DNA from: Ignavibacteria bacterium
GTDB lineage: Bacteria; Bacteroidota; Ignavibacteria; UBA10030; F1-140-MAGs086
NCBI GenBank assembly: GCA_016873775.1
Contig: VGWC01000008.1
Coordinates: 1-58,126, forward strand
Direction: 5' to 3'
DNA length: 58,126 bases
Within the stretch, counting starts at the first letter, position 1, and every line of letters begins with the position of its first letter. A program made the position numbers and the translations under genes. The notes under the pieces are model-generated. The model did not search any database and had not been told where the DNA came from. It saw only the letters and a program-made list of their open reading frames with translations. This document shows, piece after piece, positions 12,891 to 57,883 of this stretch.

Positions 12891-15800
12891 TTAAAGTGTA
12901 ATTCGGTGAATAACTATTTCGCACATTTCTCCGTTCACATCAAACGATTGAGAAACATCTCCATTATTGATTGTAGAGAATAATGAAAATGCAAGCGTCT
13001 CATTCTGAACATACTCTTTCATTGTTGAAATCGCGTTGTGCAATCGTTCTGTGGTTTTGTAAAAAATTTTTATTCTATCTGTAATTTCAAAGTTGGAATC
13101 TTTGCGCAAGTTTTGAATGCGGTTGACAAACTCACGCGCTAATCCCTCGTTGACAAGTTCTTCGGAGAGTTCTGTATCGAGCGCAACGGTGATTTCGTTA
13201 TCCGATGCAACGAGCCAACCTTGTATATCTTCGCTCAAAATTTCTACATCACTTTTTTCGATGAGAACATTTTGCGATTCAACTTCGAGAGAAATTTTTC
13301 CTTCTACATCAAGGTGAAGTATTTGTTGCGAAGAAAGTTGCTGAACTGCCAGCGCAACTTTCGGCGTTAGTTTTCCGTGTTTTGCGCCAAGAGCCTTGAA
13401 ATTCGGTTTTACTTTTCTGCGAATGATTGCATTATCCATTGCAACGTACTCAATCGCTTTCACGTTAATTTCTTCGATGATAACATTTTCCATTCGTTGA
13501 ATCATTTCTTTATCGCGTTGATTTGCAATCGGGATGAGAATACGTTTCAACGGTTGACGAACTTTCAAATTAGATTTTGTTCTCATTGAGCGAACGAGAA
13601 TGACAATGCGCTCTGCTTTGTCCATTCGCTGTTCAAGTTCTTTGTCAATCGCGTTTTCATTCACTTTCGGAAGCAACGCAAGATGAATGGATTCAACGCT
13701 TTCTTTTTTTGTTACGGAATTTAAATTGCGAAATAATTCTTCTGCAATAAATGGAGCAAACGGCGCGATGAGTTTTGAAATTGTAATCAAACATTCGTAG
13801 AGAGTTTGATACGCGGCAAGTTTATCGCTTCCCGATTCGCTCTTCCAAAAACGTCTTCTGTTTCTTCTCACATACCAATTAGAAAGTTGGTCAATCGTAA
13901 AATCGGAAACAGCGCGCGCGGCTTTCATTATCTCGTATGCATCCATCATTTCATCATACGATTTTACTAATGTATTAAGCGAAGAAATTATCCATCTGTC
14001 AATTTCCGGTCGCTCATTTAATGGAACTTCTCTCCACTGCGAGTCTTCGACTTTTTCTTTGAACGTAAATCCGTCAACATTCGCATACAACGAAAAGAAT
14101 GAATACGTGTTGAGCAACGTTCCGAAAAACTTTCTTTGAACCTCCGCTAACCCCGCTTCATCAAACAATGTTGGTTTCCACGGCGGCGATGTTGTAACCA
14201 AATACCAGCGTGTTGTATCAGCGCCGTATTTTTCCAAAATCATAAACGGGTCAACGGTATTTCCTTTCGACTTCGACATTTTTTGTCCGTCTTTATCGAG
14301 AATCAATTCGTTCACAACAACATTTTTATACGCCGGCTTATCAAACAAAAATGTTGAAATGGAATGCAGCGAATAAAACCAACCGCGCGTTTGGTCAATG
14401 CCTTCGCAAATATAATCGGCGGGATGTTGCGCGTCGAAAATATGTTTGTTCTCAAATGGATAATGCCACTGCGCAAATTGCATTGCACCGGAATCAAACC
14501 ACACGTCAATCAATTCCGGCGTGCGTTTCATTGTTCCGCCGCAAGAACATTTCCACGTAATTCCATCTACAAATGGTTTGTGCAAATCAAGTTGCGAGTT
14601 GCGAGTTGCGAGTTGTGAGTTATCCTTTCCCAAACTTGTAACTCGTAACTCGTAACTCGTAACTCTTTCCTCTAATTCTCGAACACTTCCAACACATTCC
14701 AACTTTCCACAATCCGCACAAATCCAAATCGGAAGCGGCGTTCCCCAAAATCTATCGCGCGACAACGACCAATCTTTATTTTCTTCAAGCCAATTTCCGA
14801 ATCGTCCTTCGCCAACTTCTTTCGGATACCAATTTATTTGCTTGTTCAATTCCACCATTCGCTTTGCATATTTCGTTGTTGCGATATACCACGAATCTCG
14901 CGCGTAATACAACAACGGATTTTTGCAACGCCAGCAATGCGGATATTCGTGCGCGTATGGAAGATGTTTGACAAAATTATTTTTCTCTTTAAGATGAGAA
15001 AATATTTTTTTCTCTGTCGCTTTATCTTTCACATACAAACCGGCAAGTTCTTTCACATCACTTTTGAAATTGCCGCTTCTATCAACAGTATGATATTGAG
15101 GAAGTCCAACACGCTTTCCGAGTTGATAATCATCTTCGCCATACATTACTGCCGTGTGGACAACTCCCGTTCCATCGGTTGTTGTTACGAAATCTGCTGT
15201 ATAAACTTTGTACGATGTTTCCGATTTCAACGTATCAACTTCAAACAATGGAATGTATTCTTTGCCGACTAAATCTTTTCCAAGAATGTGTTCAACTATT
15301 TCATACGAACCAAGTTGCGAGTTTCGAGTTTCAAGTTGCAAGTTTTCCTTTTCTGAACTCGTAACTCGCAACTCGGGACTTGAAACTTTTCCAACATCAG
15401 AAATTACACCAAGACAATCATTTGCAAGGATCCAAAATTCATCGCCGACTTTTATTTTTACGTAATCAATTTTTTCTCCAACAGCAAGCGCAATATTTCC
15501 GGGAAGCGTCCAAGGAGTTGTTGTCCACGAAAGAATAAACGTGTTCGCTTCATTCTTCAATTTAAATTTTATGAACACGGAATTATCCGTAACATTTTCA
15601 TAACCAAGCGAAACTTCGTGCGACGAAAGCGGCGTTTCACAGCGAGGACAATACGGTTGAATCTTAAATCCTTTGTAGAGCAAACCTTTGTCGAAGTATT
15701 GTTTGAGCGCCCACCAAATACTTTCGATATAATTATTTTCAAACGTTACATACGGTTCATCGAGATTTACCCAATAACCCATTCGCGTTGTCATTCGCTC

Positions 15801-16193
15801 CCAATCGTTTTTATATTTCCAAACGGATTTTTTGCATTCCTCGTTGAATTTTTCAATGCCGTATTTTACAATTTCATCTTTGTGTTTGAAGCCAAGCGAT
15901 TTTTCAACTTCGATTTCTACCGGCAAACCGTGCGTATCCCAACCGGCTTTGCGATGCACTTGAAAGCCGCGCATTGTTTTGTACCGGCAAATCAAATCCT
16001 TCAACGTTCGCGCAAACACATGATGAATTCCCGGTTTTCCATTTGCTGTCGGCGGACCTTCATAAAACGTAAATCCCGATTTTCCATCGCGCGTAGAAAT
16101 ACTCTTCTCGAAAATGTTTTGCTCTCCCCAAATCTTGAGAATTGCCATTTCAAGTTGCGAATAATTTATTTTATCGGTAAGTTCTTTGAACAC
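12891..16193 (-). CDS. ileS: Isoleucyl-tRNA synthetase with two repeat-encoded insertions
   Basis: 1100 residues. Class I signatures are intact: GKPGIHH (HIGH-type, around 52-58) and KMSKSKG near 636. An editing (CP1) domain lies between, and a Cys cluster (CADCGKLEC ... CSCGG) lies around 490-550. The start is a GTG at 16193, overlapping the DUF2905 stop by one base. Two short inserts are encoded by palindromic heptad repeats: about residues 269-294 and 510-535. Both include a version of ELRVTS...TRNSQL. They keep the frame open and add about 50 residues in all to an otherwise ordinary type II IleRS. The enzyme is essential, so the inserts must be tolerated. Confidence 0.95.
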   Translation of the reverse strand: MFKELTDKINYSQLEMAILKIWGEQNIFEKSISTRDGKSGFTFYEGPPTANGKPGIHHVFARTLKDLICRYKTMRGFQVHRKAGWDTHGLPVEIEVEKSLGFKHKDEIVKYGIEKFNEECKKSVWKYKNDWERMTTRMGYWVNLDEPYVTFENNYIESIWWALKQYFDKGLLYKGFKIQPYCPRCETPLSSHEVSLGYENVTDNSVFIKFKLKNEANTFILSWTTTPWTLPGNIALAVGEKIDYVKIKVGDEFWILANDCLGVISDVGKVSSPELRVTSSEKENLQLETRNSQLGSYEIVEHILGKDLVGKEYIPLFEVDTLKSETSYKVYTADFVTTTDGTGVVHTAVMYGEDDYQLGKRVGLPQYHTVDRSGNFKSDVKELAGLYVKDKATEKKIFSHLKEKNNFVKHLPYAHEYPHCWRCKNPLLYYARDSWYIATTKYAKRMVELNKQINWYPKEVGEGRFGNWLEENKDWSLSRDRFWGTPLPIWICADCGKLECVGSVRELEERVTSYELRVTSLGKDNSQLATRNSQLDLHKPFVDGITWKCSCGGTMKRTPELIDVWFDSGAMQFAQWHYPFENKHIFDAQHPADYICEGIDQTRGWFYSLHSISTFLFDKPAYKNVVVNELILDKDGQKMSKSKGNTVDPFMILEKYGADTTRWYLVTTSPPWKPTLFDEAGLAEVQRKFFGTLLNTYSFFSLYANVDGFTFKEKVEDSQWREVPLNERPEIDRWIISSLNTLVKSYDEMMDAYEIMKAARAVSDFTIDQLSNWYVRRNRRRFWKSESGSDKLAAYQTLYECLITISKLIAPFAPFIAEELFRNLNSVTKKESVESIHLALLPKVNENAIDKELEQRMDKAERIVILVRSMRTKSNLKVRQPLKRILIPIANQRDKEMIQRMENVIIEEINVKAIEYVAMDNAIIRRKVKPNFKALGAKHGKLTPKVALAVQQLSSQQILHLDVEGKISLEVESQNVLIEKSDVEILSEDIQGWLVASDNEITVALDTELSEELVNEGLAREFVNRIQNLRKDSNFEITDRIKIFYKTTERLHNAISTMKEYVQNETLAFSLFSTINNGDVSQSFDVNGEMCEIVIHRITL
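14589..14665. repeat. Heptad-word palindrome inside ileS (copy 2)
   Basis: The left arm repeats GAGTTGC, GAGTTGC, GAGTTGT, GAGTTAT. The right arm, read in reverse complement, repeats GAGTTAC four times. The arms pair with a loop of about 12 bases. The period is exactly seven, and 77 bases are added without disrupting the ileS frame. The encoded insert contains SYELRVTS and ATRNSQL. Confidence 0.85.
15311..15389. repeat. Heptad-word palindrome inside ileS (copy 1)
   Basis: The left arm has AGTTGCG, AGTTTCG, AGTTTCA, AGTTGCA and AGTTTTC. The right arm carries ACTCGTA, ACTCGCA, ACTCGGG and ACTTGAA. The arms are largely complementary. It is related in word, size and reading frame to the element at 14589-14665, and the encoded insert again contains ELRVTS and TRNSQL. 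Confidence 0.8.
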
Positions 16194-16422: not shown

Positions 16423-16478
16423 CTACTGACTTCTGACTACTGACTACTGACTACTTACTACTTACTACTCACTACTCA
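16423..16478. repeat. Eight tandem heptamers (CTACTGA-type)
   Basis: Eight consecutive 7-mers: CTACTGA, CTTCTGA, CTACTGA, CTACTGA, CTACTTA, CTACTTA, CTACTCA, CTACTCA. The array occupies essentially the whole gap between the DUF2905 gene and the nucleoside phosphorylase and runs up to the latter's stop codon. No complementary arm is visible, so this may be half of an element. Confidence 0.85.
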
Positions 16479-17943: not shown

Positions 17944-18075
17944 TAAATTCCAAATTTCAAAACTCAAATTTCAAACAAATTCTAAAACACAAAATCCAAA
18001 TTTTTTGGATGAAGTTTTCGAAAATGAAATTTGGGTTTTGTTTGACCTTTGTAATTTATCATTTGAAATTTTTCC
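17944..18075. repeat. Long palindromic heptad-type repeat between divIVA and yggS
   Basis: A left arm of words such as AAATTCC, AAATTTC, AAAACTC, AAATTTC and ACACAAA, and a right arm (18028-18075) with TTTGGGTTTTGTTTGACC and ATTTGAAATTT, can pair over about 45 bases around ATCCAAATTTTTTGGAT. It leaves little room for a conventional promoter or terminator and has no coding character. Confidence 0.7.
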
Positions 18076-49226: not shown

Positions 49227-50062
49227 ATGCAAAACAACTAATTCGCGCTCCCTCCGTTGCGGGAATATTTTATACGAAAAATCCTGAAAAACTTTCTCAA
49301 ACAATTCTTCATCTACTCGAAACTGTTCCTTCCTTTTCTGTGAAAGAAGAAATTCTTGCACTCATTTCTCCCCACGCTGGATATATGTATTCCGGTTTAA
49401 CTGCGGCGTACGGTTACAAAACTCTCGAACAAAGAATATTGGAAACTGCTGTTATTATTGCGCCAAGCCATTTTGAATTTTTTGAAACCATTTCTGTTTA
49501 TCCAGGGAAATGTTACACTACTCCTTTTGGTGAAATGGAAATTGATGTTCAACTTCGCTCGGAATTACTGAAAGAAAATTCTTTCGTGATGAATGACGAA
49601 ATCGGTCATCGCAAAGAACACGCCATCGAAGTTCAACTTCCATTTCTTCAATTATTGTTTGGAAATAAGATTAAGATTCTTCCAATCATTATTGGAAATC
49701 AAACAAGGGAAAATTGTTTTTCGCTTGGTGAAACATTGGGGAAAATTTTACGAGAGACAAATGCAATACTGATTGCGAGTTCTGATTTGTCACATTATTA
49801 CAATTCAAAAACGGCTGATGAACTCGATGAAAAATTTATCAATTGCGTAATGAATTTCGACGAAGATAAACTTATGACGAAATTAGAAAACAATGCAACA
49901 GAAGGCTGCGGCGGCGGTTGTGTCGTTGCAGTTCTTCACGCGGCAAAACTTCTCGGCGCAACGAAGACAAGAATTTTGCATCATTGCAATTCCGGCGATG
50001 TTACGGGAGATAGAGAAAGAGTTGTCGGATATATGAGTGGTATCGTGATTTGTGAATCGTGA
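49223..50062 (+). CDS. amrB: AmmeMemoRadiSam system protein B (Memo family)
   Basis: 279 residues of the Memo fold related to class III dioxygenases. ISPHAGYMYSGLTAAYGY, APSHFEFFETISVYPG, HRKEHAIEVQLPFLQ, ASSDLSHYY and GCGGGCVVAVLHAAKLLGATKTRIL...VTGDRERVVGYMSG are all present, with the His/Asp/Cys metal-site candidates conserved. The last few codons run into a heptad repeat (from 50045), which therefore forms the C-terminal GIVICES end. Confidence 0.9.
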   Translation: MNAKQLIRAPSVAGIFYTKNPEKLSQTILHLLETVPSFSVKEEILALISPHAGYMYSGLTAAYGYKTLEQRILETAVIIAPSHFEFFETISVYPGKCYTTPFGEMEIDVQLRSELLKENSFVMNDEIGHRKEHAIEVQLPFLQLLFGNKIKILPIIIGNQTRENCFSLGETLGKILRETNAILIASSDLSHYYNSKTADELDEKFINCVMNFDEDKLMTKLENNATEGCGGGCVVAVLHAAKLLGATKTRILHHCNSGDVTGDRERVVGYMSGIVICES

Positions 50063-50150
50063 TTTGTTATTCGTTAATTGTCAGTTGTCATTTGTAATTC
50101 TAAATTTTTATCACAAACCCACTAATGACAAATTACCAATGACAATTTAC
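50045..50150. repeat. Heptad-word palindrome overlapping the memo 3' end
   Basis: From 50045 words of seven bases follow each other: GTGATTT, GTGAATC, GTGATTT, GTTATTC, GTTAATT, GTCAGTT, GTCATTT, GTAATTC. The opposite arm (to 50150), in reverse complement, gives GTAAATT, GTCATTG, GTAATTT, GTCATTA. The arms pair around an AT-rich centre. The first words are part of the Memo coding sequence. Confidence 0.85.
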
Positions 50151-56083: not shown

Positions 56084-56533
56084 ATGATGGAAAGTGGTTA
56101 TGAGAAATTAGAAATTTATAAACTCTCTTATGAGTTAGCAATTCAAGTTCACAAAATGACTTTAACACTTCCAAAGTTTGAAACATATGAAGAAGGAAGT
56201 CAAATTCGACGTTCATCAAAATCAATCACTTCAAATATTGTTGAAGGATATTGCCTTCGCAGACATCAAAACGAATATTTGCAATATCTACATCACGCAT
56301 TTGGTTCTTGTGAAGAAACTCGATTACATTTAAAATTTTTATTTGAAACAAAATCATTTACGAATGAAGAACTCTACAATCAACTTTCAGAAAAATATTT
56401 ACAACTTGGTAAAATGATTTATCGTTTTATCGAAAGCATCTTTTCTGAACATGGAAAACCATACTACGTTAAAGAACAAGAAGTTATTTACGGCTCAAAT
56501 CCCACATCCCAAATCTCAAATCCAAGTTTATGA
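56084..56533 (+). CDS. Four-helix-bundle protein of the 23S rRNA intervening-sequence (IVP) family
   Basis: 149 residues from the ATG at 56084, with AAGAAAGG a few bases upstream. The signature is intact: YEKLEIYKLSYELAIQVHKM, FETYEEGSQIRRSSKSITSNIVEGY and LHHAFGSCEETRLHLKF, then a fourth helix ending in FIESIF. The family forms pentameric four-helix bundles and was first seen as the ORF of intervening sequences in 23S rRNA of Leptospira and Coxiella. Here it is outside rRNA and lies inside a perfect inverted repeat (56034-56055 and 56494-56515). Its last 14 residues (YGSNPTSQISNPSL) are written largely by the right arm, and its stop overlaps the crotonase start (ATGA). Function is unknown. 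Confidence 0.9.
   Translation: MMESGYEKLEIYKLSYELAIQVHKMTLTLPKFETYEEGSQIRRSSKSITSNIVEGYCLRRHQNEYLQYLHHAFGSCEETRLHLKFLFETKSFTNEELYNQLSEKYLQLGKMIYRFIESIFSEHGKPYYVKEQEVIYGSNPTSQISNPSL
56494..56515. repeat. Right arm of the 22-bp inverted repeat
   Basis: CTCAAATCCCACATCC followed by CAAATC, the exact reverse complement of 56034-56055. The heptad pattern continues a few bases further (TCAAATCC). It is inside the 3' end of the four-helix-bundle gene. Confidence 0.9.
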
Positions 56534-57312: not shown

Positions 57313-57376
57313 TTTTAGATTACTGATTATGGATTTCTGTTTTCCGTAATCTAAAATCTGAAATCTGAAATCTATA
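57311..57376. repeat. Heptad-word palindrome between crotonase and next gene
   Basis: The left arm has GATTTTA, GATTACT, GATTATG, GATTTCT. The right arm, in reverse complement, has GATTTCA, GATTTCA, GATTTTA, GATTACG. The right arm touches the ATG at 57377. The word GATTTnn is related to that of the 22-bp repeat at 56034. Confidence 0.88.
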
Positions 57377-57883
57377 ATGCAACTTCCCAAATACATAAAA
57401 GTTCGCCTCGTCATTGTCGCAATACTTGCAGTGTTGTGTTCAGCGTTGAGTTACAATAACATTGTTGCAAATTTTTCGACTAAAGAAATTCCAAAACGCA
57501 ATGATGATTCGCTTCTTGTTGTGCTGGATAAAAAAATTGATTCTGCTCTATTTCAATTTGGCGTAAAAGATTATTGGATAAAGAAAAGCGAAACGGAAAT
57601 TCCGAACGCGAAAAAGAAACGCTTTACGCGAAATGTTTTTCTCGCAACGGGAATTTCGCAAACGCTGATTAACAAACAATTGCATGAACTTTCGCGAAAT
57701 TACAACTGCGAACCGTACGCATCACAAGATTTGAAAAAACTCACGCTTTCAATGCAAATGAAATTTGAAGGAATAATAGTCGAACAAATTGTATTGACAA
57801 CGACAAAGAATTTACCCTCTCCTCAAAAACCGAAAGTGAATGTTGCAGAAAAGAAAGTTGTGAAAAATAAAAGAAAAAGATAG
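57377..57883 (+). CDS. Unknown membrane-anchored protein
   Basis: 168 residues. One membrane segment near residues 10-27 (VRLVIVAILAVLCSALSY) and a hydrophilic, Lys-rich region behind it, with a basic tail KKVVKNKRKR. I recognise no family. The middle (FLATGISQTLINKQLHELSRNYNCEPYASQDLKKLTLSMQMKFEGIIVEQIVLTT) looks folded and mostly strand-like. A periplasmic location is probable. It lies between crotonase and glyS with palindromic repeats on both sides. Confidence 0.6.
   Translation: MQLPKYIKVRLVIVAILAVLCSALSYNNIVANFSTKEIPKRNDDSLLVVLDKKIDSALFQFGVKDYWIKKSETEIPNAKKKRFTRNVFLATGISQTLINKQLHELSRNYNCEPYASQDLKKLTLSMQMKFEGIIVEQIVLTTTKNLPSPQKPKVNVAEKKVVKNKRKR

Follow-up and report, generated by a model that had tools for sequence, protein, structure and literature searches.

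In-frame heptad tracts of differing words recur at the same loops of housekeeping genes in an Ignavibacteria bacterium and its relatives

In the isoleucyl-tRNA synthetase gene (ileS) of an Ignavibacteria bacterium, we describe an in-frame tract of 7-nt words that lies in the loop between the two Cys pairs of the enzyme, and we find arrays of other words at the same loop in some of its relatives. The window, i.e. the whole stretch of DNA that was analysed, comprises 58,126 nucleotides of one contig of this genome (G000, a draft of 157 contigs); G001 denotes the single genome that shares its genus and G002 a genome of the same family. The ileS gene (12891..16193, minus strand; 1100 aa, GTG start) is open over its full length and hosts two tracts, tract 1 (15312..15388) and tract 2 (14589..14665), both on the minus strand. 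On balance, we lean to the reading that tract 2 is a translated, frame-tolerant heptad tract in a tolerant IleRS loop, where the site would stay while the words are replaced over time. We count as observations the location of the tract, the in-frame array, the recurrence at the same site with other words, the sharing of words within genomes and the phase-wise avoidance of stops, and these are laid out first.

Tract 2, which by its coordinates corresponds to residues 510-535 of IleRS, is a hairpin of GAGTTRC and GYAACTC heptads that runs in frame and without a stop through the gene, and the sequence and coordinates given for it by an earlier sequence-only reading were correct. The 5' arm of the coding strand (14631..14665, minus strand) consists of four GAGTTAC words and AAGTTTG and reads as an ELRVTSY cycle. 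The 3' arm (14589..14623, minus strand) consists of the complements of the plus-strand words AAGTTGC, GAGTTGC, GAGTTGC, GAGTTGT and GAGTTAT and reads as an NSQLATR cycle, with CAA as its in-frame NAA codon. Between the two word runs lies a spacer of 7 nt (14624..14630, minus strand), and 11 nt are unpaired there in the fold; the spacer and its flanks contain GTTTGGGAAARGA, which is also present in the IleRS gene of G001 amid different surrounding words. The plus strand of the tract forms a single stem of 32 pairs, with G.T/G.U wobbles, and has a hairpin z of -9.2 as DNA and -11.9 as RNA. The coding strand folds less well (z of -5.4 as DNA and -5.3 as RNA), and its mRNA has A.C mismatches, at the varying position of most words, in place of the wobbles of the plus strand. 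With TRF scores of 57 and 59, these z values and the Markov copies described below, tract 2 is more than chance. There were no Rfam 15 matches at gathering score in the whole window.

The sequence-only reading had held it notable that the frame in use is free of stops and that the peptide is of the same type as that of tract 1. Both, however, are automatic for a heptad array from which in-frame TAA has been lost, since 7 is not divisible by 3. Any heptad array encodes one seven-residue cycle, identical in every frame, so that GAGTTAC gives the ELRVTSY cycle and its complement GYAACTC the NSQL[A/V]TR cycle. In the GAGTTRC direction there are zero stops in all frames, and the complement arm acquires a stop only if GTAACTC brings TAA into frame, which concerns one word in three. 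Among the 17 in-frame tract stretches in genes of G000, the N of G[N]AACT words was C in 15 cases, A in 1 and T in 0 where it stood in frame, as compared with 10 T, 18 C and 2 A where it stood out of frame in the same stretches, and 25 T, 15 C and 5 A in 8 arrays regarded as intergenic (Fisher test of T versus C in frame: p 0.008 against out of frame, 2.5e-5 against outside genes). This lack of in-frame T is the pattern expected from selection for an open frame, although there is some circularity in the comparison, as it was open frames that were examined. Repeats of oligomers with a length not divisible by three were reportedly regarded by Ohno as safe coding material.

In the protein, Pfam recognizes the domains tRNA-synt_1, Anticodon_1 and DUF5915, and the best PDB matches by Foldseek are the type-2 IleRS structures 8c8v/8c8w. 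With numbering derived from the alignment with 8c8w, the first Cys pair (CADC) is encoded before tract 2, at 14709..14720 (minus strand), and the second (CSC) after it, at 14541..14549 (minus strand). The tract thus lies beside the Cys cluster, as had been proposed, and its site corresponds to a loop of the solved structure that is 16 residues shorter. AlphaFold gives a pLDDT <50 to residues 266-294 (tract 1) and 515-535 (tract 2), and also to four more segments (469-485, 564-577, 579-581 and 600-604); since the alignment held no homologues for the tracts, this is only weak evidence of disorder. Tract 1, of 77 nt, has the word family and the design of tract 2, a point in support of the earlier reading. 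Its site holds no heptad array in G001, where other sequence is found. The window holds other arrays too, with a period of 7, 14 or 25 (16423-16476, 17945-18000, 50043-50100, 50124-50150, 56496-56523 and 57348-57378), made of words such as CTACTGA, AAATTTC, TCGTGATTTGTAAT, CAAATCC and AATCTAA.

Most of the nearest named relatives are MAGs of Ignavibacteria and Bacteroidota. Measured between the EEL-type and DLHKP motifs, the loop has 28 residues in the window IleRS. In 111 rows, which include duplicates and of which 15 were left unparsed by the pattern, the commonest length was 10 residues (37/111), and 41 other rows had a loop of 19-25 residues, nearly all of them without an array; G002 has 11 residues, counted by hand on the peptide, and no array. 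The gain over short-loop relatives is about 17-18 residues and not the 26 of the earlier reading. At window residues 507-540, arrays were present in 8 of 97 distinct IleRS coding sequences (6 of lag 7 and 2 of lag 8), so the expectation that most relatives lack the insert is borne out. The words at this loop include GAGTTRC, GGTTGGA/CAAACC, TTCAAAG, GGTTTCA/GGAAACT and others, and the peptide cycle varies by species (ELRVTSY, WRLEVGG, FKVQSSK). The sequence-only reading had reasoned that the loop would be ancient if all relatives carried this segment with unrelated DNA; G001 and members of three or more further families of the order do have unrelated-word arrays at this loop, but not all relatives have them. 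The presence of unrelated words at the same loop points to a site that is occupied recurrently, as opposed to a single mobile sequence or an ancient conserved loop, and the latter is rejected, most relatives having no array there. The IleRS pair of G015 and G041 (89.4% identical), in which the words are kept and two 7-residue gaps lie within the tract, represents an intermediate state. Arrays of 8-nt words (GGAGTRAT, GGAAYRAT) were also seen at heptad sites, in UvrC of L224/L226 and IleRS of L095/L097. Separately, six IleRS (L033, L034, L035, L075, L076 and L089) are without the first Cys pair and have a loop of ~25 residues and no arrays, which suggests the loss of a metal site.

A comparison of G000 with G001, whose IleRS and PolA are 87% and 79% identical, respectively, extends this pattern to other genes. 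Thirteen sites were gathered by eye rather than by a complete scan, 11 of them in genes reached through GAGTTRC in G000 and two (a nitrilase-like gene and the L144 ORF) from a sample. Arrays were present in both genomes at 12 of the 13, the exception being IleRS site 1 with an array in G000 only; the PolA-1 and PolA-4 arrays of G001 pass only the looser word test and fail the 20-of-28 test. The words differ at 10 sites, PolA-2 sharing one minor word, and are the same at two (the L144/L333 ORF and the MetH-like gene). At IleRS site 2 both arms are different around the common GTTTGGGAAARGA core, and in uvrC the inner GGAGTGATGGAG is common to both genomes. Such shared cores amid differing arms seem to indicate that the tracts are older than the split of G000 and G001 and that their words have been replaced. 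Beyond the genus, in PolA, UvrC, ValRS and UvrA (25-26 sequences per protein), members of several genera have lag-7 arrays at corresponding positions. Of 26 hand-listed arrays of lag 7, 8 or 14 (25 in other genera and one the second UvrC tract of G001, with several hits per gene merged and an N-run hit in L125 dropped), 22 were within a margin of 5 residues of G000/G001 array sites; a uniform null, which ignores the relatedness of the genomes, gave 3.7 expected and a maximum of 12 in 20,000 draws. The four misses were L063 and one L279 hit (both in N-terminal extensions), L296 and the second UvrC tract of G001.

The recurrence of sites is partly loop tolerance, and in rows without arrays, too, the length is variable at the majority of these sites. 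The length hardly varies in such rows at IleRS site 1 (0-1) and PolA 919 (0-2), and at UvrC 520 the variation has a median of 0 and a maximum of 28. Nor is word replacement simply a function of distance: at ~89% identity, G015 and G041 keep their words, whereas G008 and G018 change them at PolA and ValRS. Gaps of 7 residues were found 39 times in 271 non-independent pairs, against 33 of 6 residues and 26 of 8 residues, a weak test of a 21-nt step. A separate in-frame repeat of the TCATTCCGAGC type lies at ~551-585 of PolA in L198/L199 (VIPSEARNL in G000), in both species and with a 7-residue difference in length.

Words are shared mainly within genomes. Two genes of one genome had an exact word in common in 7 of 17 pairs (G001 5, G008 1, G009 1), as compared with 6 of 47 pairs for the same gene in two genomes and 3 of 189 pairs in which gene and genome were both different, and 0 of 5000 label shuffles reached 7 shared pairs. 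This test omits one wordless row (PolA of G011) and the five rows of G000, the latter because GAGTTRC had served to select the genes of that genome; a first test that included G000 gave 17 of 27 pairs, biased by that choice. The sampled words numbered 20 in G000 and 23 in G001, of which 7 were common to both, and neither genome shared a word with the 2 of G008 or the 10 of G009. A one-substitution neighbour existed for 35 of the 36 words of G000 and G001 (as against 22.9 +/- 3.5 in 300 sets with shuffled letters, all of them below 35), a result that is inflated because arrays mix variants of one word. The sharing within genomes implies either that words move between loci or that a genome-specific process makes them.

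Lag-7 arrays are the main tandem repeat of a 358-kb sample of G000, consisting of the window and the initial 20 kb from each of 15 contigs (contigs 3, 6, 7, 11 and 17, in which the word had been found before, were left out). With a match at 22 of 28 positions as the criterion and the arms counted separately, there were 22 arrays of lag 7, 9 of lag 14 and 2 of lag 21, with 0-1 at every other lag from 4 to 22; five Markov copies of the sample had 0, 0, 0, 0 and 0 lag-7 arrays, and TRF assigned a period of 7, 14 or 21 to 36 of 68 arrays. The base rate is ~61 lag-7 arrays per Mb. Fourteen of the 22 were outside ORFs of 450 nt or more and eight inside them, three of the eight being ileS tracts. Heptads are not dominant in all relatives, since lag-7 arrays numbered 2 in 300 kb of G008 (and 11 in 270 kb of G009), and around ileS in 80 named relatives TRF found 3 arrays of period 7, as compared with 19 of period 14 and 33 of period 15. 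In G001, two long tandem arrays have a unit of 21 nt in about 11-12 copies (L150:1814-2060 and L163:3839-4068).

Arrays of GAGTTRC itself are found at about 25 places in G000. Those in frame lie in polA (two sites), uvrA, uvrC and a valS fragment, and further in metH-like, trpB-like, nadD-like and other genes; IleRS, PolA, UvrC, ValRS and UvrA were checked with Pfam, and the other gene names were read from the sequence. Four tracts, the two of the window and those of L011 and L024, span exactly 77 nt, and the GAGTTRC arm comes first in 9 of 9 two-armed GAGTTRC tracts. A universal hairpin among the tracts is ruled out by the folds of polA2 and uvrA in G000, polA1, uvrC and ileS2 in G001 and valS1 in G008, all with a z between -1.2 and 1.4; the ileS hairpin of G001 is not significant (z of -1.2 and -0.3). 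Three GAGTTRC words were present in 8 of 245 genomes of the class and 5 of 395 of the phylum, both counts including the genome itself, and three GAGTTAC words in 4 viral contigs. As a test of one mobile sequence family, this occurrence is patchy and uninformative on mechanism.

The reading that we favour can be put as follows. Tract 2 is built from variants of one 7-nt word and its reverse complement, so that the array folds back, and is one of many such tracts in G000, whose word vocabulary is limited. Slippage in 7-nt steps would lengthen and shorten the tracts, template switching or gene conversion would copy words between the tracts of one genome, and fold-back would copy words partly from arm to arm, such that the site could remain occupied while its words turn over. 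Selection would then retain the versions with an intact frame and no in-frame stop at sites that the protein tolerates. Translation, slippage, copying between tracts and neutrality of the peptide are the conjectural elements here, and copying and slippage are suggested by comparison of sequences rather than by events seen directly. The inverted arms and the exact word in different genes imply that slippage alone is insufficient, and as hairpins are not general among the tracts, the palindrome needs a cause of its own. The literature backs only parts of this mechanism.

A broader proposal, for which the case is tentative, envisions a genome-wide coding dialect, in which every lineage would have a small, drifting 7-nt vocabulary that is continually written and rewritten at fixed tolerant sites of essential proteins as frame-independent modules. 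GAGTTRC or GAGCNNR read in the sense direction would yield hydrophilic linkers, and the antisense (GCTC) reading would yield hydrophobic cores of signal peptides; if this were true, a dedicated copying or writing process would be at work. Windows with GAGCNNR arrays number 64 in G000 and 35 in G001, with 0 in the reversed control. Among 19 distinct GAGCNNR tracts in the fetched stretches, each with three intact words, 9 read as GAGC inside ORFs, 8 form on the GCTC strand a signal-peptide-like N terminus (ALCSPLHAQ and similar; by eye, a hydrophobic run ending before A-Q), 1 has the GCTC strand inside an ORF and 1 was unassigned. The eight N termini, read on the opposite strand, belong to secreted-type proteins (L135, L358 and L382 in G000; L359, L361, L365, L367 and L383 in G001, of which L361 has no in-frame ATG upstream), and the domains that follow the leaders are BatD (two), GH3, S9/PD40 (two), PD40, thioredoxin-like and TPR. 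The leader of the BatD-like pair is made of three heptad arrays.

The alternative that survives best, although we consider it unlikely, is a palindromic element that is mobile like the Rickettsia palindromic elements (RPEs), i.e. a discrete unit that some transposition activity inserts and whose in-frame insertions survive. In the available parts of PMC10969869 and PMC3733652, RPEs are described as families with a length of about 150 bp and a conserved peptide, palindromic repeats that lie in frame in genes unrelated to each other, which they seem not to destroy. The heptad tract, too, lies in frame inside an ORF and spares the gene, and the palindrome of tract 2 is able to fold, which is not general for heptad tracts. 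One word family at so many places in G000, four tracts of a single exact length, a site 1 tract that is present in G000 only and an invariant order of the arms would all suit a discrete unit. However, the heptad tracts have no conserved family sequence or peptide, only the 7-nt period, and one-armed arrays, multi-word arrays and arrays with nested words occur. Moreover, words and peptides change at the same site between sister genomes and between families, and fresh insertions would need to strike repeatedly at the same sites. Membership in the RPEs as such is ruled out by the absence of a fixed sequence. Two other systems bear a partial likeness: the PARCEL repeats are coding repeats with DNA dyad symmetry that spread between genes, but as a 25-residue protein motif in tandem (PMC2996958, as far as its available text goes) instead of the 7-residue cycle and 7-nt words found here in housekeeping loops, and the mitochondria of Nematomorpha have long perfect palindromes in coding regions, with no heptad units mentioned in the accessible portion of PMC6649704.

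Slightly less probable is slippage only, by which each array would arise de novo at its tolerant loop without exchange between loci. Cyanobacterial STRR are heptanucleotide tandem repeats, and the tracts resemble these and other heptanucleotide repeats in having 7-nt tandem units in several copies at many loci. According to the sections of PMC4679880 that were available, and on the strength of an earlier survey cited there, heptanucleotides are the most abundant long-unit repeats in most surveyed genomes and polymerase slippage has been proposed; the same source describes TAACTGA repeats in Beggiatoaceae, Cyanobacteria and five Bacteroidetes and expects in-gene long-unit repeats of bacteria in multiples of three. 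In the portion of PMC4692102 at hand, Xanthomonas and Nostoc are reported to have G-rich heptamers, of which a minority is genic (7-11% in Xanthomonas, more in Nostoc), and Calothrix to have three heptanucleotides. In the G000 sample, 14 of 22 arrays are outside ORFs of 450 nt or more, although tract 2 itself is in ileS, and slippage would also agree with arrays that lie mostly in loops of variable length. Yet the published heptanucleotides, in what was available of PMC4679880 and PMC4692102, involve one or few fixed words per genome and are mainly intergenic, whereas the heptad tracts involve many related words per genome, are frequent in housekeeping genes, often have inverted arms and have different words at orthologous sites. 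Simple slippage does not produce inverted arms, and exact words are common within a genome and rare between genomes. Our search, which covered few subscription papers, found neither a paper that describes heptad tracts in frame in genes of Ignavibacteria nor one that describes orthologous sites with replaced words.

We regard it as improbable that the tracts have a role for which they are selected, be it at the level of peptide, RNA or DNA (e.g. recruited signal peptides or mRNA hairpins). The eight signal-peptide-like N termini among the 19 GAGCNNR tracts and the occupation of 12 of 13 sites in both species of the genus would favour such a role, but in ileS most relatives are without an array, the peptide varies by species, the confidence of the structural model is low at the tract and the hairpin of G001 is not significant. 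There is very little to recommend REP-type elements mobilised by Y1 (TnpA/RAYT-like) transposases. Y1_Tnp matches numbered 4 in G000 and 7 in G001, and arrays adjoin 2 of 8 fetched Y1 loci of ~3 kb each, but this is close to the base rate of lag-7 arrays, which came from a slightly stricter array threshold, the words are unconserved, and no GTAG or CGTC tag (REP/RAYT) was seen at tract 2 when the sequence 14570-14670 was read. G002 has no Y1_Tnp match and no GAGTTRC array and is uninformative on the link. In G000, a ten-word GAGTTRC array lies ~1 kb from a Y1 transposase gene (C105:2035-2104 and C105:3123-3464). Finally, an assembly artefact, conceivable in a draft of 157 contigs, or an ancient conserved loop can hardly be credited in view of same-site arrays in several other genomes, open frames and mostly arrayless relatives.

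Considering our findings here, the observation first made on tract 2 is correct and is part of a larger phenomenon than was thought. We know of no transposon or simple slippage that explains a 7-nt process at the same loops of IleRS, ValRS, PolA, UvrA and UvrC. The tracts can be regarded as a variant on heptanucleotide repeats and RPE-like coding palindromes, and there is a real chance that site-anchored word replacement is a new process. For annotators, peptides such as ELRVTS or NSQLATR are signatures of heptad tracts. For biology, the heptad tracts offer a directly testable system for the creation and rewriting of sequence inside essential proteins, and for Ohno's idea.
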